Part shown: positions 3,048-43,456 of the stretch, in pieces | How the letters are laid out: every line of letters begins with the position of its first letter | Position numbering within the stretch: the stretch's first letter is position 1 | Source of the DNA: Oceanicella actignis | GTDB taxonomy: Bacteria; Pseudomonadota; Alphaproteobacteria; Rhodobacterales; Rhodobacteraceae | Assembly (NCBI RefSeq): GCF_008124525.1 | Contig: NZ_VNHJ01000004.1 | Location: 186,001 to 250,000, forward strand | DNA length: 64,000 nt | Reading direction: 5' to 3' | Translations under genes and position numbers: made by a program | The notes under the pieces: generated by a model | Told to the model about the DNA's origin: nothing | Databases searched by the model: none | What the model saw: the letters and a program-made list of their open reading frames with translations, nothing else

Positions 3048-4192
3048 TGGCCGCCCCCGCCCCTTCCCGCGGCCCGCTCGAGGGGCTGCGCGTGGTCGAG
3101 ATGGCGGGTCTCGGCCCCTGCCCGCTGGCCGGGCAGCTGCTGGCCGATCTGGGCGCCGAGGTGATCGTGATCGAGCGCGCCTCGGGCGGGCCGCGGCCGC
3201 ATGACGTGAACAACCGCGGCAAGCGCTCGGCGGCGCTGAACCTCAAGACCCCCGAGGGCGTCGAGGCGGCGCTGCGTCTGATCGACCGCGCCGACGCGCT
3301 GATCGAGGGCTTCCGCCCCGGCGTGATGGAGAAGCTGGGCCTCGGCCCCGAGATCTGCCATGCGCGCAATCCCGCGCTGGTCTACGGGCGCATGACCGGC
3401 TGGGGGCAGAGCGGCCCGCTGGCGCGCACGGCCGGGCATGACATCAACTATCTGGCGCTGACCGGCGCGCTCTGGATGATGGGCGAGCGCGACCGCCCGC
3501 CGACGCCGCCGCTGAACCTGGTGGCCGATTACGGCGGCGGCGCGATGTTCCTGCTGCTGGGCGTTCTGGCGGCGCTGTGGGAGCGCGGGCGCTCGGGCCG
3601 CGGCCAGGTGGTGGATGCGGCGATGGTGGACGGGGTGTCGGCCTTCGGCGGCATCTTCCGCATGATGTCGGCGCTGGGCGCGTGGCGAGAAGAACGGCAG
3701 GCCAATCTGCTGGATGGCGGCGCCCCCTTCTACCGCTGCTACGAGACCAGGGACGGCAAGTATCTGGCCGTCGGCCCGCTCGAGCCGCAGTTCTTCGCCC
3801 AGCTGCTCGAACGCGCGGGGCTGCCGGCGGCGCATCTGGCCGACCAGAACGACCGCGCCAACTGGCCCGAGCGCGCGCGCCTTTACGCCGAGGTCTTCCG
3901 CAGCCGCACCCGCGACGAGTGGGAGCGGATCTTCGCCGGCTCGGACGCCTGCGTGGCGCCGGTGCTGGCGCCCTCCGAGGCGCCGGCCCATCCGCACAAC
4001 GCCGCGCGCGGCGCGCATGTCGAGGTCGAGGGCGTGCTTCAGGCCGCCCCCGCCCCGCGCTTCGACCGCACCCCGGCGCCCGCCCCGCGCCCGCCCGCCC
4101 CGGCCGGCGCCGACACCGAAGCGGTTCTGCGCGAGGCCGGGCTGGACGACGCCGCCATCGACGCGCTGCGCCAGGCGGGCGCGCTGACCTGA
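3047..4192 (+). CDS. CaiB/BaiF-family CoA transferase / alpha-methylacyl-CoA racemase-like protein
   Basis: Class III CoA transferase, which moves CoA between carboxylic acids, or an alpha-methylacyl-CoA racemase of the same fold. The 381-residue protein opens with PLEGLRVVEMAGLGPCPLAGQLLADLGAEVIVIER, typical of the family. It then has NRGKRSAALNLKTPEG, RPGVMEKLGLG and GRMTGWGQSGPLARTAGHDINYLALTGAL. The Asp of GHDINYLALTGAL occupies the catalytic Asp position of the family, and AGHDINY is more typical of the racemase branch. It is the last gene of the acyl-CoA operon, with a TGATG junction to the dehydrogenase. It probably activates, recycles or epimerises the acyl-CoA fed to the two upstream enzymes. 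The exact substrate is unknown. Confidence 0.9.
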   Translation: MAAPAPSRGPLEGLRVVEMAGLGPCPLAGQLLADLGAEVIVIERASGGPRPHDVNNRGKRSAALNLKTPEGVEAALRLIDRADALIEGFRPGVMEKLGLGPEICHARNPALVYGRMTGWGQSGPLARTAGHDINYLALTGALWMMGERDRPPTPPLNLVADYGGGAMFLLLGVLAALWERGRSGRGQVVDAAMVDGVSAFGGIFRMMSALGAWREERQANLLDGGAPFYRCYETRDGKYLAVGPLEPQFFAQLLERAGLPAAHLADQNDRANWPERARLYAEVFRSRTRDEWERIFAGSDACVAPVLAPSEAPAHPHNAARGAHVEVEGVLQAAPAPRFDRTPAPAPRPPAPAGADTEAVLREAGLDDAAIDALRQAGALT

Positions 4193-4577
4193 GCGCAACG
4201 CGGCGCGGCGGTGCGGGCGGAATGCGAGCGCCGGCGCGCACGACGCTTGCGCGTCTGCGTCGGGCGGCCCCACTGCGCGGAAAGGGTCGCCGCCGCGCCA
4301 TCGCTCCGCCCGCGCGCCGCGCGGCCCGGCCCGCGAGGGCGTTCCCGGCTGGCCCGGCTGGTTCGCGCCGGGTCAGGCCGCACCCTCCGCGCGCGGGCGC
4401 GCGCGGGCGATCCCTTCTCGGTCACCGCCGCCACCGTCGTTCCGTCGGCCGCCCTCTGCGCGGGTGTTGCGCCTGTTGATCCCGGCGGTGGCGTGCGGGA
4501 GCCCCTGTTTCGCCGCCATGACCCGGCCGCCTTCGGCCTGCGCCCGGCCGCGCGCCCCGGCGCCGCCGCCGGCAGGA
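4193..4577. other. GC-rich gap between convergent operons
   Basis: This lies between the stops of the CoA-transferase gene (plus) and sdhE (minus). I see no convincing gene, no T-tailed hairpin and no repeat. The open frames crossing it are Arg/Ala/Pro-rich on both strands, as expected by chance at this base composition. Confidence 0.5.
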
Positions 4578-10101: not shown

Positions 10102-10177
10102 GGCCGAGCGCCTAGGGCCGCAGCCCCGGGTCGAAGCGGCCAGGGCCGACCGGCCCGGGTCGCGGCGCCAAGGTCGC

Positions 10178-10226
10178 TCGGCCGGGGTCTCGCGGCCAGG
10201 GTCGTGCGGCCGGGGTCTTGCGGCCG
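10178..10226. repeat. 14-bp tandem repeat after the aspartate aminotransferase gene
   Basis: Three full 14-bp units run head to tail: TCGGCCGGGGTCTC (10178-10191), GCGGCCAGGGTCGT (10192-10205) and GCGGCCGGGGTCTT (10206-10219), followed by a half unit. More decayed copies of GCGGCCAGGGnCG extend back to about 10135. The array sits in the 318-base gap between two plus-strand genes and encodes nothing I recognise. Confidence 0.7.
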
Positions 10227-10350
10227 CGCGCGGGGGGAGAGGCGGCGCGCGCCCTCGGCCCCGCGCGCCCTAGGCCCCACGCGGCGTCCGGCCCGGCGGC
10301 GCGCGCCGTCGGGCCGGCACGGCGCCCCGTTCCCGCGCGAACCGCGCCCG

Positions 10351-10379: not shown

Positions 10380-10419
10380 CATGACCGCGCGCAGCGAAAA
10401 CCCACGGAGGGGACAGCGG

Positions 10420-11547
10420 ATGGAACGACCCAGCCTGACCGTCGGCATCGAGGAGGAATACCTGATCGTCGACCGCGAGACGCGCGATCTGGTCGCCCGT
10501 CCCGATCCCGCCTTCATGCAGGCCTGCGAGCGGCGCCTGGGCAAGCGCGTGACGGTCGAGTTCCTGCAATGCCAGGTCGAGGTCGGCACCGCCCCGCACG
10601 CCACCGTCCCCGAAGCGGCGGACGAGCTGCGCGCCCTGCGCGCCGCCGTCGCCCAGACGGCGGCCGAGTTCGGCTATGCGCCCATCGCCGCCTCGTCCCA
10701 CCCCTTCGCCCGCTGGCGCGATCAGACCCACACCCGCAAGGAGCGCTACGACGCCCTGCGCGCCGATCTGGGCCAGACCGTGCGCCGGCTGCTGATCTGC
10801 GGGTGCCATGTGCATGTCGGCGTCGAGGACGAGGACCTGCGCATCGACCTGATGAACCAGGCGGCGTATTTCCTGCCCCATCTTCTGGCGCTCAGCTGCT
10901 CGTCCCCGTTCTGGGAGGGCGAGGACACCGGCCTGGCCAGCTACCGGCTGACGGTGTTCGACGCCCTGCCCCGCACCGGGCTGCCCGATCCGCTCGGCTC
11001 GTATTCGGAATACCGGCGCCTGACCGACCAGCTGGTGCGCTCGGGCTGCATCGAGGACGCGACGCGCATCTGGTGGGACATCCGGCCCTCGGACCGCTTC
11101 CCCACGCTCGAGCAGCGGGTCACGGACGTGTGCTCGCTGGCGCGCGACGCGGCGACGGTGGCCGCGCTCTATCAGAGCCTTCTGGCCTATCTGTTCCGCC
11201 TGCGCACGCGCAACCAGCGCTGGCGGCTGTATCCGCACACGCTGATCCGCGAAAACCGCTGGCGCGCCCAGCGCTACGGCGTCTCGGGCGAGCTGGTCGA
11301 TCACGGGCGCGCGCGCCTTGCCCCCATGGCCGACCTGGTCGAGGAGCTGATCGACATGCTCGGCCCCGACGCCGAGGCGCTGGGCTGCGCGGCCGAGCTG
11401 CGCCATGCGCGCGCCATCGCCGCGCAGGGCGTGTCGGCCGACCGGCAGCGGCGCGTGCACGCCGCCGCGCTCGAGGCCGGCGCCGATCCGGCCGAAGCCA
11501 TGCGCGCGGTCGTCGATTCGCTGATCGAGGAATTCGCCGCAGGCTGA
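10420..11547 (+). CDS. YbdK-type carboxylate-amine ligase (glutamate-cysteine ligase 2 family)
   Basis: ATP-dependent ligase of the GCS2 family. E. coli YbdK has weak gamma-glutamyl-cysteine ligase activity, and the physiological substrate is generally unknown. The 375 residues match the usual 370-380. Motifs are TVGIEEEYLIVDRETRDLV at the N terminus, EFLQCQVEVGTAPH, HPFARWRDQTHTRKERY, the metal-site ICGCHVHVGVED, and IWWDIRPSDRFPTLEQRVTD. The start at 10420 was chosen because GGAGGGG lies 8 nt upstream and a promoter at 10351-10379 would place the transcript start after the alternative ATG at 10381. It is followed by its own promoter-bearing neighbour, so it is probably monocistronic. Confidence 0.9.
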   Translation: MERPSLTVGIEEEYLIVDRETRDLVARPDPAFMQACERRLGKRVTVEFLQCQVEVGTAPHATVPEAADELRALRAAVAQTAAEFGYAPIAASSHPFARWRDQTHTRKERYDALRADLGQTVRRLLICGCHVHVGVEDEDLRIDLMNQAAYFLPHLLALSCSSPFWEGEDTGLASYRLTVFDALPRTGLPDPLGSYSEYRRLTDQLVRSGCIEDATRIWWDIRPSDRFPTLEQRVTDVCSLARDAATVAALYQSLLAYLFRLRTRNQRWRLYPHTLIRENRWRAQRYGVSGELVDHGRARLAPMADLVEELIDMLGPDAEALGCAAELRHARAIAAQGVSADRQRRVHAAALEAGADPAEAMRAVVDSLIEEFAAG

Positions 11548-35192: not shown

Positions 35193-35639
35193 CTAGTCTG
35201 GGGCGGCGGGCGGATCCGCGGCCGGCGCGAAGGCGGCAAGCTCGGGGCTGAGCGCGCCGCCCGTCGCCGGCAGGCCGTCCAGCTCGAGCCAGGCATGGGC
35301 GGTCAGCGCGCCGTCGGCGCCGCGCAGAGCCCCAAGGCGCAGCTCGGCGTCGCGCCCCAGCGATTCGAGCCACAGCTTGCCCGCCAGCGCCTGCACCAGG
35401 CAATCGGCCCGCCAGGGCGCGCGCCGCGCCGCCGCCGCCAGCGCCCAGCGCATCTCGTCCGCCGTCGGGGCGCCGGCGCGGGGGCGGCCCGGCGCGCGAG
35501 CGGGCTGGCGCAGGCGGCGCAGCACGGCGGGGGCGTCCATGCGCGCATGCATCATCCGCGCCTGTGCCAGCCGCGCCCAGGCGGCGCAGAACAGGCGCAG
35601 CTCGCGCGCCGTGGGGGGGAAGCGGCGCGCGCGCCTCAT
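35193..35639 (-). CDS. Lasso peptide biosynthesis B2 protein (leader peptidase)
   Basis: Transglutaminase-like cysteine protease that cuts the leader off the lasso precursor. The 148 residues match stand-alone B2 proteins. The catalytic set is visible as RADCLVQALAGKLWLESLG (Cys), LTAHAWLELDG (His, then Asp). The N-terminal half is basic and helical: MRRARRFPPTARELRLFCAA. The start at 35639 was chosen because it overlaps the exporter stop (ATGA, 35636-35639); a longer frame to 35684 lies wholly in the exporter tail. It is the third gene of the A-D-B2 arm and works with B1 (40926-41438), which presents the leader. Confidence 0.92.
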   Translation of the reverse strand: MRRARRFPPTARELRLFCAAWARLAQARMMHARMDAPAVLRRLRQPARAPGRPRAGAPTADEMRWALAAAARRAPWRADCLVQALAGKLWLESLGRDAELRLGALRGADGALTAHAWLELDGLPATGGALSPELAAFAPAADPPAAPD

Positions 35640-37840
35640 CGCCCGGACGAGCCGGCCGCGCGGGCCGGCGCCGGCGCGCCGCAAGCGCCGCGGCCGGTCG
35701 CTGGCGGGGTCCGGGCGTCCGGCGCGCCAGACGGCTGGGCGACGCCGCCGCGCCCTGGCCGCGGCGGCGCACCTTCGCGCGCATCGCCCTCGGCCGGACG
35801 CGGGTTCGCTTCGTCGCCCGGCCGGTCCGAGTCTTCGGTGCCGCCGGACCCCAGCGCCTGCGCCGCGCCTTCACCCGAGACGCCCCCGGCCGGGCGCGGG
35901 TTCGTTTCATCGCCCGGCCGATCCGAGGCTTCGGCGCCGCCGGACCCCGGCGCCTGCGCGGCGCCTTCGGCCTCGACCTCGGCCGCGCGCGGGATCGTCT
36001 CATCATCCCGCCGATCCGAGGCTTCGGCGACGTCGCCCGGATGCGCGCGCCGCGCGGGCGCCTCGTCCAGTCCCGCCGGAGCCTCGGCCGCGGCCATGCG
36101 CCCCAGAAAGCCATGCGCGGCCATCTGCGCTCGCGGGCCCGCGGCGGCCAGGCGCCCCTCCTCGATCACGGCGATGCGGTCGACCCACGCCACCGAGGAC
36201 AGCCGATGCGCGACGACGAGGATGGTCGTCTCGGCCCGCAGCGCGGCAAGCCGCCCGACGATGCGCGCCTCGTCCAGCGGGTTCATCGCCGAGGTCGCCT
36301 CGTCCAGCGCAAGAAAGCGCGGGCGGCGCAGGATCGCGCGCGCCAGGCAGATGCGCTGGCGCTCGCCCGCCGACAGGCGATCGCCCCGGTCGCCCACCTC
36401 GGCGTCCAGCCCGCCCATGGCGCGGGCGCGCTCGGCGAAGCCGACCAGCTCGAGCGCGCGCCACATCGCCGCCTCGTCGGCCTCGGCGGCGCCCATGGCC
36501 AGATTGGCGCGCAGCGTGTCCGGCGCCAGGAAATCGTCGCGGCTGACCAGCGCCACCTGCGCGCGCCAAGCGGCCAGGTCCGATTCGGCCAGCGGCGCGC
36601 CATCGACCAGCACCTGCCCGGCGCTCGGCGCCATCAGACCGCACATGAGGTCGGCGAGAGTCGTCTTGCCCGCGCCCGACAGGCCCATCAGCGCCGTCGC
36701 CGTGCCCGCGGGCAGGTCCAGCGTCACGTCGCGCAGCGCCGGCGTCTGCGCGCCCGGATGCGTGTGCGACAGCGCGCGCACGCTCACCCGCGCGGGGCCG
36801 CGCGCGCGCGCCAGCGCGGCGGCGGGGCCGCGCGGCTCGGCGGCGGCGGCGAAGTCGCGCACCTGGCGCTCGTATTCGGCGAAGGCGGCGGCGACCGAGA
36901 TCAGCTCCTGCAGCAGCTCATGCGCCGACATCAGCCGCGGCAGAAGGCGCATGAACAGGACCGCCATCAGCGCGCCCTCGCCCGCCGTCATGCCCGAATG
37001 CGCCGCGATCCACAGGATCGCCGCCAGCGCCGTCGCGCCGCCCGCCTGATGCGCCAGATCCGAGCGCAGCCCCAGCCGCCGCACCCGCCGCGCCATCTGC
37101 GCCTGCCGGCGCGAGGCGTCCTCGAACGCGGCCGATCCGGTTGCGCCCTGCGCGCCGGGCCGCGCCAGGAAGCGATCGAGCTTCAGATTGTCCAGATACC
37201 GCGCCACATGGTCGTAGAGCCGCGCCGTGCGGCGAAAGACGTCGCGGCTGCCGCGCGCGATCAGGCGGTCGATCCACAGCATCGGCAGCGCCAGCGCCCC
37301 GGCCACGCCCGCCGCCGCCAGCACCACGCGCGGCTCGACCGTCAGCGCCAGCGCGCCCGCCGTCAGCGCCACGCAGCACGCCACGGCAAGGCGCATGGCC
37401 ACGTCCGCGCCATGGGCCAGCTCGTTCGGGGCCATGGTCAGCGCATGGTGCAGGTCGGCCCGCCGCGCGCCCTGCACCTGCGGCCAGCGCGCGCCGGCCA
37501 CCGCGCGATAAAGGCGCATGCGCAGCTTGTGCATCAGCCCGGCCATGATGCGAGCGGCAAGCTCGCCGTACAGATACGCCGCGCCCGCCCGCGCCAGCAC
37601 CGCGGCCAGGAACAACGCCAGCAGCGCCTCGAAGCCCGGCGCGGCGCCCAGCGCGCGCTCGAGCCAGCCGAAGGGGCCGCCCACGGCCGCGCCCTCGAGC
37701 CCGCTTTGCGCCAGCAGGCCGCCAAGGCTGAGCAGCCCGAGCCCCTCGGTCGCCGTGACCAGCGCAAGCAGAACGAGCGCCGGCGCGATGCGCCGACGCT
37801 CGAGCGTCCAGAGGATCCGGGCGAAGCGGAGAATGGTCAT
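35636..37840 (-). CDS. Lasso peptide exporter D (ABC transporter) with repetitive C-terminal tail
   Basis: Membrane and ATPase domains in one 734-residue chain; it would export the mature peptide and give self-immunity. Residues 1-330 are membrane-spanning (ALVLLALVTATEGLGLLSLG near the start). The ATPase has Walker A GLSGAGKTT (about 386-394), signature LSAGERQR (489-496), Walker B FLALDEATSA and H-loop VVAHRLSS. Residues 590-734 are an added acidic/Pro/Gly tail containing three copies of a 31-32-residue unit (SDRPGDE-NPRPA type), encoded by a 93-96-bp DNA repeat. The tail is absent from ordinary D proteins. The start lies 37 nt after the precursor stop; the stop overlaps B2. Confidence 0.93.
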   Translation of the reverse strand: MTILRFARILWTLERRRIAPALVLLALVTATEGLGLLSLGGLLAQSGLEGAAVGGPFGWLERALGAAPGFEALLALFLAAVLARAGAAYLYGELAARIMAGLMHKLRMRLYRAVAGARWPQVQGARRADLHHALTMAPNELAHGADVAMRLAVACCVALTAGALALTVEPRVVLAAAGVAGALALPMLWIDRLIARGSRDVFRRTARLYDHVARYLDNLKLDRFLARPGAQGATGSAAFEDASRRQAQMARRVRRLGLRSDLAHQAGGATALAAILWIAAHSGMTAGEGALMAVLFMRLLPRLMSAHELLQELISVAAAFAEYERQVRDFAAAAEPRGPAAALARARGPARVSVRALSHTHPGAQTPALRDVTLDLPAGTATALMGLSGAGKTTLADLMCGLMAPSAGQVLVDGAPLAESDLAAWRAQVALVSRDDFLAPDTLRANLAMGAAEADEAAMWRALELVGFAERARAMGGLDAEVGDRGDRLSAGERQRICLARAILRRPRFLALDEATSAMNPLDEARIVGRLAALRAETTILVVAHRLSSVAWVDRIAVIEEGRLAAAGPRAQMAAHGFLGRMAAAEAPAGLDEAPARRAHPGDVAEASDRRDDETIPRAAEVEAEGAAQAPGSGGAEASDRPGDETNPRPAGGVSGEGAAQALGSGGTEDSDRPGDEANPRPAEGDAREGAPPRPGRGGVAQPSGAPDARTPPATGRGACGAPAPARAAGSSGR
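35801..36035. repeat. 93-96-bp coding tandem repeat in the exporter tail
   Basis: Copies anchored at CGGGTTCG (35801), CGGGTTCG (35897) and CGGGATCG (35990) are spaced 96 and 93 bases and stay in frame. They share CCGATCCGAGGCTTCGG-type blocks. The third copy is the most diverged. Confidence 0.75.
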
Positions 37841-37877: not shown

Positions 37878-38018
37878 TCAGGAGCACTTCGCCGTGCTGC
37901 CCAGCGCCGCGTAGCCGCAGGCGTCGCCCGGGTTCTTGGGCTTGCCGTTGCCCTGAGTCGCGGCCTTGACCTCGACCTTGGTCAGCTTGGGGGCCTGCCA
38001 CGCCTGCTTCTCGTTCAT
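37878..38018 (-). CDS. Lasso peptide precursor A (46 residues)
   Basis: Small gene missed by length cut-offs, read directly on the minus strand. The leader has W7-x-x-P10-x-L12, the (Y/W)xxPxL motif recognised by B1-type proteins, then a basic/acidic stretch (KLTKVEVKAAT) and T21-Q22-G23, the usual Thr-x-Gly cleavage context. The C-terminal part from G23 is rich in Gly, Asn, Pro and Lys. It has a single acidic residue (D32), cysteines C34 and C45, and ends in Ser46. D32 must be the ring acceptor if a lasso forms. From G25 the ring would have 8 residues; from G23 it would have 10, which is outside the known 7-9. GAGGACAGG precedes the ATG. It is first in the A-D-B2 operon. Confidence 0.85.
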   Translation of the reverse strand: MNEKQAWQAPKLTKVEVKAATQGNGKPKNPGDACGYAALGSTAKCS

Positions 38019-38130: not shown

Positions 38131-39597
38131 TCAGATCGCGCCGAGGGCGCGCAGAATGCTGAAATCCTGGTGAACGAAGCGTTCAGCGCGCCGGCGCAGC
38201 GCCGCCATGGCCGGCGAGGCCGCCGCCCCCCCTTGCTCCGGCGGTTGCGCGTCGCCCAGCGCCGCGATCAGCGAATCGACGTCCTCGTCCGCGCCGCCCA
38301 GCGCCGCGCCGGCAAGGCGCATGCCCTCGGCGTCGAGCTCGACCGCGCCGCCGATGGCCGGCGCGGCCAGCGCCCGCGGCCCGCCGCGTCCATCGGCCAG
38401 CGCGGCCAATGCGGCGTTGACCGCCCGCACGCGCGGCGGCGCGGCCGGCGGCTCTTCGGGCGCGGGGGCGAGGTCGCCCGAGGACAAGAGCGCCGCCGCC
38501 GCCCGCCGCGCGGCCTCGAGCGTCATGCCCAGCCGCTCGGCGAGCGCGCCCAGCCGCGCCGGGCCGTCGGCGCGCAGCGCCTCGAGCATCGGCCCGTGCA
38601 CGCGCCGCGACAGCGCCGCCGAGCCCAGCAGACCCTCGACCCGCCCCGGCGGCGCCCCGGCCGGCCCCCGCGCCGCAAGGCGCAGCGCCGCCGGATCGGC
38701 CCTGCGCCCGCCGGGCTTGACGAACAGATCCGCACGCCGCAGGCGGCGCGCAAGGATGTCGCCCAGCTCTTCGGCCGCCGGGCCGCCCTGCGGGATGCGC
38801 GCCGCGATCAGGGCCTGCTGCTCGGGGGTGAAATCGAGATCGCGCAGCAGACGCGCCGGGTCGGCCGGCGCCGCCAGCCGCAGTCCCGCCCGCTCAAGCC
38901 GCGCGCACAGCCGCTCCACCCCCTCGGGCGCGGCCGGGCGGCGGAACCAGCGCCGGGCGGCCAGCTCGGGCGGCAGGGCGCGCAGCTCGGCCATCTGGGC
39001 GTCGAACCCGCCATAGCCGCGAAACAGCGCGTGGCTGAGCGCAAGCGCCTCTTCCAGAAGCGCGAGCGCCTGCGCGGCGCGCGCGGCCTCGGAGGCCCCG
39101 GGATCCGTCCGCGCCCAGCACAGGCGGGCCAGCTGGCGCAGGGGCAGCTCCTCGGCCGCGCCGGGAAGGACCTCGTGCGTCAGCATCAACGCGCCGCCCG
39201 GCGCCAGCGCCCGCGCCGCCAGCGCGATCAGGGCCTCGCGCGCGGCCTCGTCCAGCTCCTCCCAGCATTCGGGAACCGCGATCAGGTCGAGCGCGCCGGG
39301 ACCGAACGCCGCCTCGGCCTCGCGCCAGCCGGAATGCACGCGCGCGCCCGACGCGGCGGCCAGCGCGCGCGCGTCCGCGGCCTCGTCCTCGCGCAGGACA
39401 AGGCCGTGCGCCTCGACGCCGCATGCGGACAGGATGGCGGGCGTCACGCCGCGCCCGCAATCGACATGCAGCGCCCGGCGCAACGGGCGGAACGGCGCGC
39501 CGGCCAGGGTCAGCGCGGCCTCGAGGCGCGCGGGCTCGGCCATCGGCAGATGCGCCCAGTGCGAGGCCGCGCCCGCGACATGCGGCGGCGCGCTCAT
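38131..39597 (-). CDS. SAM-dependent methyltransferase with protein-lysine-methyltransferase-type regulatory domain
   Basis: Protein of 488 residues between the two arms of the lasso cluster. Residues 40-140 are a class I methyltransferase fold: motif I ALHVDCGRGVTPAIL, then an acidic strand end (LDLIAVPECWEEL) and ALAPGGALMLTHEVLP. Residues 200-297 resemble the predicted methyltransferase regulatory domain (PF10119): LPPELAARRWFRRPAAPEG, DFTPEQQALIAARI and LARRLRRADLFVKPG. This domain also occurs in rickettsial outer-membrane-protein lysine methyltransferases. The C-terminal 190 residues are Ala-rich and less clear. Motif I is degenerate (HVDCGRGV rather than DxGxGxG), so activity needs testing. 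A role in modifying the lasso peptide is inferred from position. Confidence 0.8.
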   Translation of the reverse strand: MSAPPHVAGAASHWAHLPMAEPARLEAALTLAGAPFRPLRRALHVDCGRGVTPAILSACGVEAHGLVLREDEAADARALAAASGARVHSGWREAEAAFGPGALDLIAVPECWEELDEAAREALIALAARALAPGGALMLTHEVLPGAAEELPLRQLARLCWARTDPGASEAARAAQALALLEEALALSHALFRGYGGFDAQMAELRALPPELAARRWFRRPAAPEGVERLCARLERAGLRLAAPADPARLLRDLDFTPEQQALIAARIPQGGPAAEELGDILARRLRRADLFVKPGGRRADPAALRLAARGPAGAPPGRVEGLLGSAALSRRVHGPMLEALRADGPARLGALAERLGMTLEAARRAAAALLSSGDLAPAPEEPPAAPPRVRAVNAALAALADGRGGPRALAAPAIGGAVELDAEGMRLAGAALGGADEDVDSLIAALGDAQPPEQGGAAASPAMAALRRRAERFVHQDFSILRALGAI

Positions 39598-39753: not shown

Positions 39754-40857
39754 ATGACCGAGCCCCCCGAGCAGAACCCCGCGCAGAGCCCCGAGCGGAA
39801 CCCCGACCGCAAGGCCCGACGGAGCGCCGCCCGGCATTCCGCCCCCGATTCCCACCCCGATTCCCACCCCGATTCCCCCGGGCCCTTGACCGGCGGCCCC
39901 GATCCGGGCCCCACCGATCCGGCGCCCGCCCGTCTTCTGAGCGCGCACGGCCTGGTCTTCGCCTGCCCCTTCGACGTGCCCGGCATGGCCCCGGCGCCGC
40001 CCGGAGCGCGGGCCGACGTGACCGCGCGCCTCGGGGCGGTTGCGCCCGCGGCGCTGGCGCGCGCGCCGCTGGCGGGCGATTGCCGCATTCTGGGGCCGGG
40101 CCGGGTCGCCATCGAGGACGCGGCCTTCCGCGCCCTGATCGAGGAGGGCGCGCGCATCACCATCGACCCCTCGCCCGCCGCCGGCCCCGGCGCGGGCGCG
40201 GGTTTCGGCCCGCAGGCGGCGCGGCTGCTGCTGGGCTACGGCGCCAGCGCGGTGCTGCTGCACCAGCGCGGCGGGCTGCCGCTGCACGCGGCCGCCGTCG
40301 CCCTGCCTCGGGGCGCGGCGCTGTTGCTGGGCCCGGCGGGGGCGGGCAAGTCGACCCTGGCCGCGGCGCTGGGCGGGATGGGATTCGCCATGCTGGCCGA
40401 CGATCTGACCGCGCTCGATGACCGCGCGCCCGGCGGGCCGCTGGTTCAGCCCGCCATCGGCACGGTCAAGCTCTGGCCCGACAGCGCCAGGGCCCTGGGT
40501 GGCCCGGGCGCGCGCGTGCCGGTCGAGGGCATGTCCAAGACGATCCTGCGCACGCGCGAGAACGCGCCGGCGCCGGCGCCGCTGCGGGCGATCGTCGTCC
40601 TCGACTGGCTGCATCCGCCCGAGGCCGCCCCCGAGACCAGCGAGATGAACCGCATCGAAGCCCTCGACGCCCTGCGCGGCGCAATCCAGCGCCCGGCTCT
40701 GGCGCGCGCGCTTGGGCGCGAGGGCGAGATCCTGGCGCGGCTGGCGGCCCTGGCCGGCCGCATCCCGGCGCTGCGCCTTGCGCGCCCGCGCCGCTATGGC
40801 GCGATGCCCGAGGTTGCAAAGCTGATCGCGGACTGCATCATCGGCGACGCGTCCTGA
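39754..40857 (+). CDS. HPr-kinase-like protein of the lasso cluster
   Basis: Probable kinase of 367 residues, related to HPr kinase/phosphorylase (HprK) and to the kinases that tailor lasso precursors. Residues 1-60 are disordered (repeated HPDSHPDS, Pro and Glu). The conserved core has LPLHAAAVALPRGAALLLGPAGAGKSTLAAALGGMGFAMLADDLTALDD. In it, GPAGAGKST is the P-loop (about 193-201) and LADDLTALDD the second HprK motif. VEGMSKTILRT and IVVLDWLHPPE follow. The start at 39754 follows GAGGA; an in-frame ATG at 39625 would add 43 unstructured residues. It is first in the plus-strand arm, 68 nt before B1. Confidence 0.85.
   Translation: MTEPPEQNPAQSPERNPDRKARRSAARHSAPDSHPDSHPDSPGPLTGGPDPGPTDPAPARLLSAHGLVFACPFDVPGMAPAPPGARADVTARLGAVAPAALARAPLAGDCRILGPGRVAIEDAAFRALIEEGARITIDPSPAAGPGAGAGFGPQAARLLLGYGASAVLLHQRGGLPLHAAAVALPRGAALLLGPAGAGKSTLAAALGGMGFAMLADDLTALDDRAPGGPLVQPAIGTVKLWPDSARALGGPGARVPVEGMSKTILRTRENAPAPAPLRAIVVLDWLHPPEAAPETSEMNRIEALDALRGAIQRPALARALGREGEILARLAALAGRIPALRLARPRRYGAMPEVAKLIADCIIGDAS
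39845..39877. repeat. 12-bp coding tandem repeat in the kinase N terminus
   Basis: CCGATTCCCACC at 39845-39856 and 39857-39868, then a partial copy to 39877. It encodes repeated HPDS and is in frame. Confidence 0.75.
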
Positions 40858-40925: not shown

Positions 40926-41438
40926 ATGATCTTCGACGATGCGGAAAACATGCTCTTGCGCCGCGCTCGGGGCGTGCTCGAAGCGCGCATGAGCGCGGAC
41001 GAGCTGGTGCTGCTGGCCGCGGATGGGCGCGTCTATCTGGACCTTGACCGCATCGGCGCCGAGATCTGGGAGCGCCTGGCCAGGCCGATGCGCCCGGCCG
41101 ATCTGGCGCGGGACCTTGCGCGCGATTTCGACGCGGCGCCCGAGCGCATCGCCGCGGACATCGGTCCGTTTCTGGCCGAGCTGGTCGCCGAGGGCGCGCT
41201 CGAGCTGATCGCAGGCCCCTTGCCGGCCGCGGATGCGGGCGAGGTGGGCGAAGGCGCGGCGGATCGGGGCGCAAGCGATCAGGGCGCCGCGGGCCGGCCC
41301 ATGGCGGATGCGGGCGGCGCGGATGAGGGCGGCGCGGACGCGGGCGCGGCGGCGGACGAGCCCGGCGCGGATGCGGGCGACGCCGGCCGGGGCGGCGCGG
41401 ATACGGGCGACTCAAATGGGGCCCCCGGCCGCGCATGA
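40926..41438 (+). CDS. Lasso peptide biosynthesis B1 protein (PqqD-like leader-recognition protein)
   Basis: RiPP recognition element that binds the precursor leader and delivers it to B2 and C. Residues 1-98 have the PqqD winged-helix pattern: EARMSADELVLLAADGRVYL, LDRIGAEIWERLARPMRPAD, LARDLARDFDAAPERIAADI, GPFLAELVAEGALEL. Residues 99-170 form an Ala/Gly/Asp-rich tail with 15-bp coding repeats that typical B1 proteins (80-100 residues) lack. AAGGAGGGCCG precedes the ATG. The stop overlaps the cyclase gene (ATGA, 41435-41438), so the two are translationally coupled. Confidence 0.9.
   Translation: MIFDDAENMLLRRARGVLEARMSADELVLLAADGRVYLDLDRIGAEIWERLARPMRPADLARDLARDFDAAPERIAADIGPFLAELVAEGALELIAGPLPAADAGEVGEGAADRGASDQGAAGRPMADAGGADEGGADAGAAADEPGADAGDAGRGGADTGDSNGAPGRA
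41301..41345. repeat. 15-bp coding tandem repeat in the B1 tail
   Basis: Three units of the type GGCGCGGATGAGGGC spaced 15 bases, with the core GCGGATGnGGGC at 41304, 41319 and 41334. Weaker copies continue to about 41420. Confidence 0.7.
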
Positions 41439-43456
41439 GCGGCCCGACCGAGGATCCCGACGCGTTCGAGCGCGCGCAGCGCTGGTTCGCCGGCGCCTTC
41501 GACCCGCGCGGACGCGCCGATCTGCTCGAGGCGGCGATGCGCGCCATGCGCGCCGCCCCGCCCGTCGCCGACGCCCCGGGCCTGCGCTGGCGCGAAGCCG
41601 CGCCCAGCCCCTTCCTGCGCGTGGCCGCGGCGGCGGCCGGGGCCGATCCCGCGCCGATGATGACCGCCGCCCCCGCGCCCGATGGCGGGCCCGCCCTGTT
41701 CGCCGCCGGCGACGCGACGCTGTTCGCCCCGGAGTTCGCCCCGGAGTTCGACCAGACGTTCGACCAGGCGTTCGACCCTGATTTCGCCCCGGGGTTCGGC
41801 CAGACGCTCGTCCCGGGTTTCCGCCCGACCGATCCGGCGCGCGACGCGGCCGCCGCGCCTCGGGCCGCGCGCGACCTGCGGCGCCTGGCGGCGCTGGCCG
41901 CCGCCGGCCGGCTGGACGAGGCCGAGGGCGTGTTCGCCGCGCTCATGCACGATCCCCGGCGCCCGGCGCTGACGCTGCTGCGCGATCGCTGGGGCCACGG
42001 GCCGCTCTGGATCGCGCGGCTGGCGGGGGGCGCGACGCTGTTCGCCAGCTCGCCCCACATGCTGCTGGCGGCGCCGGGGGTCTCGCGCACGCCCGATTTC
42101 GCCGCCTGCGCGCTGTTCCTGGCCGCGCGCCAGCCGGGGCCCGAGCACGCCTACTTCGCCGACATCGCCCAGGCGCCGCCGGGCGCGGCGCTGCGCCTTG
42201 GGCCCGAGGGCGAATCGCGCCGCGCCGTCGCCCCGCTGGGCCCCGATCCGGCGCTTGCCGGGCGCTCGGCGGACGAGATCGCGCAGGCCGTGGCCGAGCG
42301 CGCGCGCACGGCCACGCTGGCGCGCGCGCCCGGATCGGGACCGGCGGCGATGATGCTGTCGGGCGGGCTCGATTCGGCGCTGATCGCGGCGCATCTGGCC
42401 GCGCGCGGCCCGGTGGAGGCGTTCGCCTCGGTTCTGGGCCCCGGCGCGGACCCCGCCCTGACCGACGAGCGCGCCCATCAACGCGCGCTGGCGCAAGCCC
42501 TGCCCGGGCTGCGCCTGCACGAGACGCCGGCGGGCGATCTGGACCTGCTGGCGCCCTCGGCGCATTGGTGGCGGCAGGCGGCCTCGCCGAACCCGGACGT
42601 GATGCACGCGACGCAGCTGCTGCTGGCGCAGGCGGCCGCGGATCTGGGCGCGGATGCGCTGTTCAGCGGCTTCGGCGGCGATTTCGCGCTGTCCTCGCAT
42701 GGCGAGCCGGCCTTGTTCGAGTTCCTGGTCACCGGCCGCTGGCGCGCCCTGGCGCCCGAGCTGGCGCGCCGGCGCGCGGCGGGCGGACGCTGGCGCAACA
42801 TCCTGCTGGGCGGCTTCGTCAAGCCGCTGCCGATTTACGAGGCCTGGCGGCGCCTGCGCCCGGACGCCGCCGCGCGCGAGCTGCCGGCCATCCTGCGCAC
42901 GGATCCGGCCATAGCCGCGCGCCTGGCGCAGACCGGGTGCAGCGCGCATCTGCGCTATCATCGCACCGTCGCCGCCGAAGAGGCCGCGGCGCTGGCCGCC
43001 CTGCCGGCCTGGACGGGGCAGGCGCATGACCTGCCGGGCGGTCGGCGCATCGCGCAGCGCCTGCCGCTTCTGGACGCGCGACTGCTGCGCGCCGTGCTGG
43101 CCGCGCCCGTCTCGCTCAAGCTGGGGCGCGGGCCGGACGGCCGATGGCGCAACCGCGCGCTCATCCGCGCGCTGCTGCGCCCCCTGGTTCCGCCCGCCAT
43201 CGCCGAGCGCGAGGACAAGGACCTGTTCCAGCCCGATTTCGGGCGCCTGATGCGCGCCGCCCTGCCCCGCATCCGCGCCGACGCGCCCGAACTGGCGCGC
43301 AGCGAGATCTGGCGCGCGCTGATCGACGCCGAGCGCTGGCGCGCCGCGCTGGACGAGGCCGGGCGCGCGCCCGATGCGGCGCTGCTGTCGCTGGCGCATC
43401 CCATCCTGCTGCCCTGGCAGCTGGGCGACTTCCTGCGCCGCGCGGGCGCGCCCTGA
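41435..43456 (+). CDS. Lasso peptide cyclase C (asparagine-synthetase-like)
   Basis: ATP-dependent enzyme that activates the ring Asp or Glu by adenylation and closes the macrolactam. The 673 residues have an N-terminal glutaminase-like region without the catalytic Cys2 (starts MSG); LLRDRWGHGPLWIARL is the remnant of the D-R-x-G-x-x-P-L motif. The synthetase half has the PP-loop MMLSGGLDSALIAAHLA (about 307-323) and FSGFGGDFALSS. Residues 97-130 are an inserted Phe/Asp/Pro repeat (FAPEFAPEFDQTFDQAF) from a 12-bp DNA repeat. Loss of Cys2 separates it from true AsnB. ATGA overlap with B1. Confidence 0.92.
   Translation: MSGPTEDPDAFERAQRWFAGAFDPRGRADLLEAAMRAMRAAPPVADAPGLRWREAAPSPFLRVAAAAAGADPAPMMTAAPAPDGGPALFAAGDATLFAPEFAPEFDQTFDQAFDPDFAPGFGQTLVPGFRPTDPARDAAAAPRAARDLRRLAALAAAGRLDEAEGVFAALMHDPRRPALTLLRDRWGHGPLWIARLAGGATLFASSPHMLLAAPGVSRTPDFAACALFLAARQPGPEHAYFADIAQAPPGAALRLGPEGESRRAVAPLGPDPALAGRSADEIAQAVAERARTATLARAPGSGPAAMMLSGGLDSALIAAHLAARGPVEAFASVLGPGADPALTDERAHQRALAQALPGLRLHETPAGDLDLLAPSAHWWRQAASPNPDVMHATQLLLAQAAADLGADALFSGFGGDFALSSHGEPALFEFLVTGRWRALAPELARRRAAGGRWRNILLGGFVKPLPIYEAWRRLRPDAAARELPAILRTDPAIAARLAQTGCSAHLRYHRTVAAEEAAALAALPAWTGQAHDLPGGRRIAQRLPLLDARLLRAVLAAPVSLKLGRGPDGRWRNRALIRALLRPLVPPAIAEREDKDLFQPDFGRLMRAALPRIRADAPELARSEIWRALIDAERWRAALDEAGRAPDAALLSLAHPILLPWQLGDFLRRAGAP
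41723..41818. repeat. 12-bp coding tandem repeat (8 units) in the lasso cyclase
   Basis: TTCGCCCCGGAG at 41723-41734 and again at 41735-41746, then TTCGACCAGACG, TTCGACCAGGCG, TTCGACCCTGAT, TTCGCCCCGGGG, TTCGGCCAGACG and CTCGTCCCGGGT in exact 12-base steps. All are in frame. Confidence 0.85.

Follow-up and report, generated by a model that had tools for sequence, protein, structure and literature searches.

A lasso peptide cluster of Oceanicella actignis whose precursor suggests a ten-residue ring

Background

When the motif that marks the cleavage site of a lasso precursor and the position of its ring acceptor contradict each other, which of the two do the maturation enzymes follow? Ring size and a threonine at position -2 are the two working rules for predicting lasso structure from sequence. 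The question is raised by a short open reading frame of Oceanicella actignis, which lies in a stretch of 64,000 nucleotides (positions 186,001 to 250,000 of contig NZ_VNHJ01000004.1), hereafter the window. A sequence-only reading of this DNA had drawn attention to positions 37878-38018, rightly as to the coordinates and leaving the strand unstated, and had noticed that T21-Q22-G23 fits the Thr(-2)-x-Gly cleavage context but places the only available acid, D32, ten residues from G23. It proposed that the peptide has an atypical cleavage site, has a ten-residue ring, or is not a classic lasso peptide at all. Its statement that known rings contain 7 to 9 residues agrees with the reviews, in which characterised rings have 7, 8 or 9 residues (PMC13352647, PMC8498205), and we found no description of a lasso peptide with a ten-residue ring in the literature searched. 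The cleavage context does fit as claimed, but Thr(-2) is not absolute as a rule, Ile at -2 having been shown experimentally (PMC10368454).

Results and discussion

The precursor gene

Translation of the minus strand at 37878-38018 yields a peptide of 46 amino acids, MNEKQAWQAPKLTKVEVKAATQGNGKPKNPGDACGYAALGSTAKCS, and there is no comparable peptide on the plus strand of the same segment. T21, Q22, G23, G25, D32, C34 and C45 stand where the sequence-only reading had put them, and D32 is indeed the sole Asp or Glu downstream of E16. The likely leader, M1-Q22, contains the motif W7-Q-A-P10-K-L12 and carries T21 at -2 if the cut falls between Q22 and G23. The core would then be G23-S46 (37881-37952, minus strand; GNGKPKNPGDACGYAALGSTAKCS), with the acceptor D32 at +10, cysteines at C34 and C45 and S46 at the C-terminus. 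In the Thr(-2) register the core acid thus occupies position 10, and it occupies position 9 or 8 solely with a shifted cut; the ring segment is free of Ser and Thr. A chance open reading frame was ruled out by orthology: homologs occupy the same position in three Albimonas genomes, the Albimonas pacifica precursor is matched at a tblastn E value of 8.5e-5, and a complete cluster surrounds the gene. A search of the host genome for a second precursor of the same kind returned only this single match, and a scan for a sigma-70 site upstream found none.

The monoisotopic masses that had earlier been computed by hand were reproduced, namely 2076.97 Da (reduced) and 2074.96 Da (with a disulfide) for cyclised G25-S46 and 2248.04 Da (reduced) for cyclised G23-S46. 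These masses are for unmodified peptides and are a lower bound, because the cluster includes a kinase and a methyltransferase. The predicted masses distinguish products starting at G23, N24 and G25.

The surrounding cluster

A leader peptidase, a PqqD/RRE protein and an Asn-synthase-type cyclase adjoin the short precursor, and by its gene content the window cluster is a complete HprK-type lasso cluster. On the minus strand lie the leader peptidase B2 of the Transglut_core3 family (35193-35684; PF13471, 2.1e-19; NF033537 lasso_biosyn_B2, 65.5 bits against a cut-off of 33), in which the active-site Cys and His are present in alignment, an ABC exporter that is putatively the lasso D gene (35636-37840; PF00005, 6.9e-30) and, beyond the precursor, a SAM methyltransferase that is a candidate tailoring enzyme (38131-39597; PF13649, 0.001, and a weak MethyTransf_Reg match, PF10119, 0.012). 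The plus strand carries an HprK-type lasso kinase (about 39754-40857, start codon uncertain), the PqqD/RRE protein B1 (40926-41438; PF05402, 5.5e-13) and the cyclase C (41435-43456; PF00733, 1e-20). The kinase matches TIGR04352 HprK_rel_A weakly, at 1.1e-7 and under the cut-off; its His, P-loop Lys and Asp-Asp motif, which are the residues reported for lasso kinases (PMC9266682, PMC10368454), are intact in all four orthologs aligned, the window's included. All genes of the cluster are intact and open. With the full machinery present and conserved, the suggestion that the product might not be a classic lasso peptide is unlikely; the three-way dilemma itself is real, and among its horns we favour the ten-residue ring.

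Orthologous clusters in Albimonas

Among 394 same-family genomes, an even draw from a larger group, a close cyclase outside the host was found in one, that of A. pacifica. A scan of the genome collection added Albimonas sp. CAU 1670, and a third Albimonas species also carries the cluster; the genus belongs to the Rhodobacterales, family Paracoccaceae. Searches of plasmids with the cyclase and the precursors gave no matches. All three Albimonas clusters (L026, L054 and L055) share with the window the order B2, precursor, methyltransferase, kinase, RRE and cyclase, and in all four recR and an MsbA-like ABC gene come next; the Albimonas clusters differ from the window in having no ABC gene between B2 and the precursor. 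The window cyclase shares 33-39% identity with its three Albimonas counterparts, and its SGGLDS loop is among the invariant columns.

Each Albimonas precursor (MNKKVWLEPKVSKLSVREMTKGTGGPPSDVCGGSGAIIDCSIP, MSKKVWIEPKVAKMSVKSMTRGTGGPPIDVCGGDGAIIDCS and MGKKVWNRPTVSVVSVKALTRGLDGSGPDGCGKAVVFTDACS) lies between B2 and the methyltransferase. Aligning homologous precursors to see which Gly is invariant relative to the Asp had been proposed with the sequence-only reading, and in this alignment the invariant Gly of the cleavage context is G23, in the same leader register throughout. Across the four precursors M1, K4, W7, P10, V17, T21, G23, D32, C34, G35, C45 and S46 are invariant, the Asp-x-Cys-Gly motif and a Cys-Ser near the C-terminus are common to all, and Thr-x-Gly keeps the same leader register, with a W-to-Thr spacing of 14 in each. 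The C-terminal residue is Ser in the window (S46), L054 and L055, whereas L026 ends S-I-P. The three relatives have Asp at +8 from the Gly of Thr-x-Gly, which corresponds to a normal ring; in the window precursor two extra residues separate the invariant Gly from the Asp, which moves the Asp to +10.

To locate these two residues, one insertion of two residues was moved stepwise through W7-G35 and the BLOSUM62 scores were summed. The comparison places the expansion in the ring and not in the leader, because the scan scores best at K28-N29 (219, against 186 at G23-N24 and 159-163 on the leader side, from A19-A20 to T21-Q22); with the most divergent ortholog, L055, alone, the positions were barely distinguished. 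This placement speaks to ancestry and not to where B2 cuts.

A ten-residue ring is favoured because T21, G23 and D32 are invariant and the Asp stands at +8 in three relatives. We assign a probability of about one half to the reading in which the peptide would be cut between Q22 and G23, closed into a ten-residue macrolactam G23-D32 and bridged by a C34-C45 disulfide. The idea of this disulfide, already raised on sequence grounds, gains from the retention of both cysteines in all four precursors.

The starting residues considered earlier were G23 and G25; a start at N24 was overlooked. Cleavage after G23 would make N24 residue 1 and produce a nine-residue ring N24-D32, within the known size range. 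W7, P10 and L12 would then stand at -17, -14 and -12, where YxxPxL is reported to lie (PMC10368454). For metanodin there is experimental support for Asn at +1 (PMC12670498), which is also predicted in four of the precursors surveyed below (L108, L117b, L136 and L151). However, this start would move the Thr to -3, unlike the three orthologs, which have Thr-x-Gly in the equal leader register, and we regard it as unlikely. Metanodin is, like the window peptide, proteobacterial, and it departs from the rule for residue 1, as the window peptide would with Asn there; unlike the window peptide, it combines Thr at -2 with an ordinary ring.

How rare the conflict is

Lasso precursors were collected around B2 genes from 367 and 369 genomes and in cyclase neighbourhoods from a class-wide search, chosen by a pattern and a leader profile and then read by eye (n = 45). 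Among those with Thr at -2 the first acid falls at position 8 in 14, 9 in 10, 10 in five, 12 in three, and 7 and 5 in one each; the pattern demanded an acid within a set interval, so these counts are a guide and are biased as a rate. An automatic "10" for L158 was discarded, as a reading with V at -2 gives 8. In L094 a second acid stands at 9, an alternative Thr in L085 gives 8, and the automatic picks L085, L093, L097b and L178 are doubtful in that other registers fit. The genuine spacing outliers are the window precursor, the L141/L143 family and three paralogs at L180. The conflict between ring and cleavage site is real, but the view of it as a unique oddity of the window peptide was ruled out: it recurs in L141, L143, L209 and L210 (acid at 10) and in L180 (acid at 12).

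In most of the surveyed precursors the Thr lies 13-15 residues after an aromatic residue. Judging from these sequences, neither the Thr(-2) rule nor the ring-size rule is absolute in such clusters, because in several precursors -2 is Ser, Ala, Val or Ile, or +1 is Asn. Applying the Thr(-2) rule would start the core with Asn, as in metanodin, at L108:3061-3210, L117:10639-10806, L136:8390-8545 and L151:3804-4022. The three precursors at L159:3004-3177, 3442-3690 and 4139-4312 carry Ile or Val at -2 and Asp at +9, and their D-x-C-G-H motif together with a second Cys resembles the Cys pattern of the window peptide. Another HprK-type lasso cluster occurs in the window's own family (genome G144, L187:6981-7205), with an unrelated precursor, YTKPVLTNLSAQKTAQDKGMAAKEMKGMRNVGIAS.

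The three paralogous precursors at L180:9882-10034, 10133-10285 and 10383-10559 have the Thr in its usual place and share an invariant Ser-Gly-Lys, but their first acid comes only after 12 residues; either the ring would be far larger or the cut would lie well past the Thr. This trio bears on a cut between N24 and G25 in the window peptide, since it suggests that a cut past the Thr rule may exist. Such a cut, made directly or by trimming of G23-N24, would give a Gly at +1 and an eight-residue ring G25-D32 of the orthologs' size, with the Thr at -4. It would, however, put W7 at -18, beyond the range of the clear surveyed cases, and G25 is not the Gly of Thr-x-Gly. We know of no trimming step between cleavage and cyclisation, and we consider a G25 start quite improbable.

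A second lineage with Asp at +10

A profile of the L141/L143 precursors had matches in 18 of the 29 genomes of the alphaproteobacterial genus to which genome G1001 belongs, with up to five per genome. The genus is unrelated to the window lineage. We read 26 distinct precursors, L141 included, and found Asp at +9 in 21 and at +10 in five (four genomes). Every one of the 26 has a Tyr 15 residues before Thr(-2), and the leader is the same in the +9 and +10 forms. In the latter the segments are TIFFSPGNRD, TISFARGNRD, TLFTSKGNRD, TIFFARGNRD and TIWTSKGNRD. In these precursors the residue before the presumed cut is variable and the next one, Thr, is invariant, which is the behaviour expected of -1 and +1. 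The two clusters examined, L141 and L143, each contain B2, RRE and cyclase as well as an HprK match. The +10 precursors lie at L143:3284-3511 and 3668-3895, at L141:3640-3852 and at L209 and L210 (G1001, G924, G1354, G1347). Lasso precursors are very dense in this genus (L208-L232), and many have TGRGG or RTR near the end.

The +10 subgroup is a candidate second lineage of ten-residue rings; alternatively, Ile or Leu could be residue 1 in these precursors, which would give a ring of nine. A ten-residue ring becomes more credible because the +10 spacing is maintained in this second lineage.

The window's genus is represented by one genome in the search collection, and the window's +10 form was seen in one genome. 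The latter speaks for a dead or unthreaded product, in which case the insertion would have left a poor substrate, or a linear or branched-cyclic peptide would be all that forms. Engineered ring-size changes are poorly tolerated, a change of one residue usually lowering the yield (PMC13352647). Against such a failed product stand the intact, open genes, the retention of the conserved core residues and the extra exporter in the cluster, and it seems to us rather improbable.

Proposed maturation and known systems

Under the favoured ten-residue reading, the PqqD/RRE protein would bind the leader at W7-x-x-P10-x-L12, and the kinase, following the example of paeninodin (PMC9266682), would phosphorylate a Ser near the C-terminus (near Ser46) while the leader is still attached. 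B2 would cleave after T21-Q22, and the cyclase would adenylate D32 and link it to the G23 amine, so that the ring of a threaded product would be the macrolactam G N G K P K N P G D; C34 and C45 would oxidise to a disulfide in the post-ring segment. The longer ring would derive from the two-residue insertion relative to the Albimonas orthologs with their eight-residue rings. Phosphorylation near Ser46 is probable; by analogy with BsfK, which phosphorylates Ser3 of its own core (PMC10368454), the window kinase could act at a site other than the C-terminal Ser, though the ring of the window peptide offers it neither Ser nor Thr.

The role of the methyltransferase may be in tailoring. The gene is present in all four clusters, with 38-41% identity between the window protein and its Albimonas orthologs. 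In a structural model the catalytic domain resembles class I methyltransferases and the best Foldseek match, a weak one, is Rickettsia PKMT1; the mean pLDDT of 50.5 marks a low-confidence model, too poor for naming the substrate. Methylation of core Lys residues by a PKMT-like enzyme is unsupported, as these vary in Albimonas.

Among the closest known systems are those of the paeninodin type (PadeA/PadeK; SyanK, ThcoK), which likewise have separate B1, B2 and C genes, an HprK-related kinase with the His-Lys-Asp-Asp residues and a precursor ending in Ser. The window cluster differs from them in its extra methyltransferase, its two conserved cysteines, an Asp that stands at +10 when Thr is set at -2, and a kinase homology under the NCBIfam cut-off. 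The class IV lasso peptides LP2006 and pandonodin resemble the window peptide in having one possible disulfide with both cysteines post-ring (predicted for the window peptide), but in the latter the first Cys comes just two residues past the acceptor.

Conclusions

The machinery itself is known; what is new here is the predicted ring size, the combination of kinase and methyltransferase and the conserved Cys pair. We tentatively propose, at somewhat less than even odds, that ten-residue macrolactams may be a natural class of lasso peptides that has arisen at least twice, in the window cluster and, if its subgroup is what it seems, in the G1001 genus, and that has been overlooked through the 7-9 rule. 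In the window peptide the two rules contradict each other and its close relatives obey both, so this substrate can reveal which rule the enzymes read. If the ten-residue ring is true, it would be a larger scaffold and cavity than those known and would offer engineers a cyclase tolerant of larger rings, and mining filters would be overlooking a class of products.
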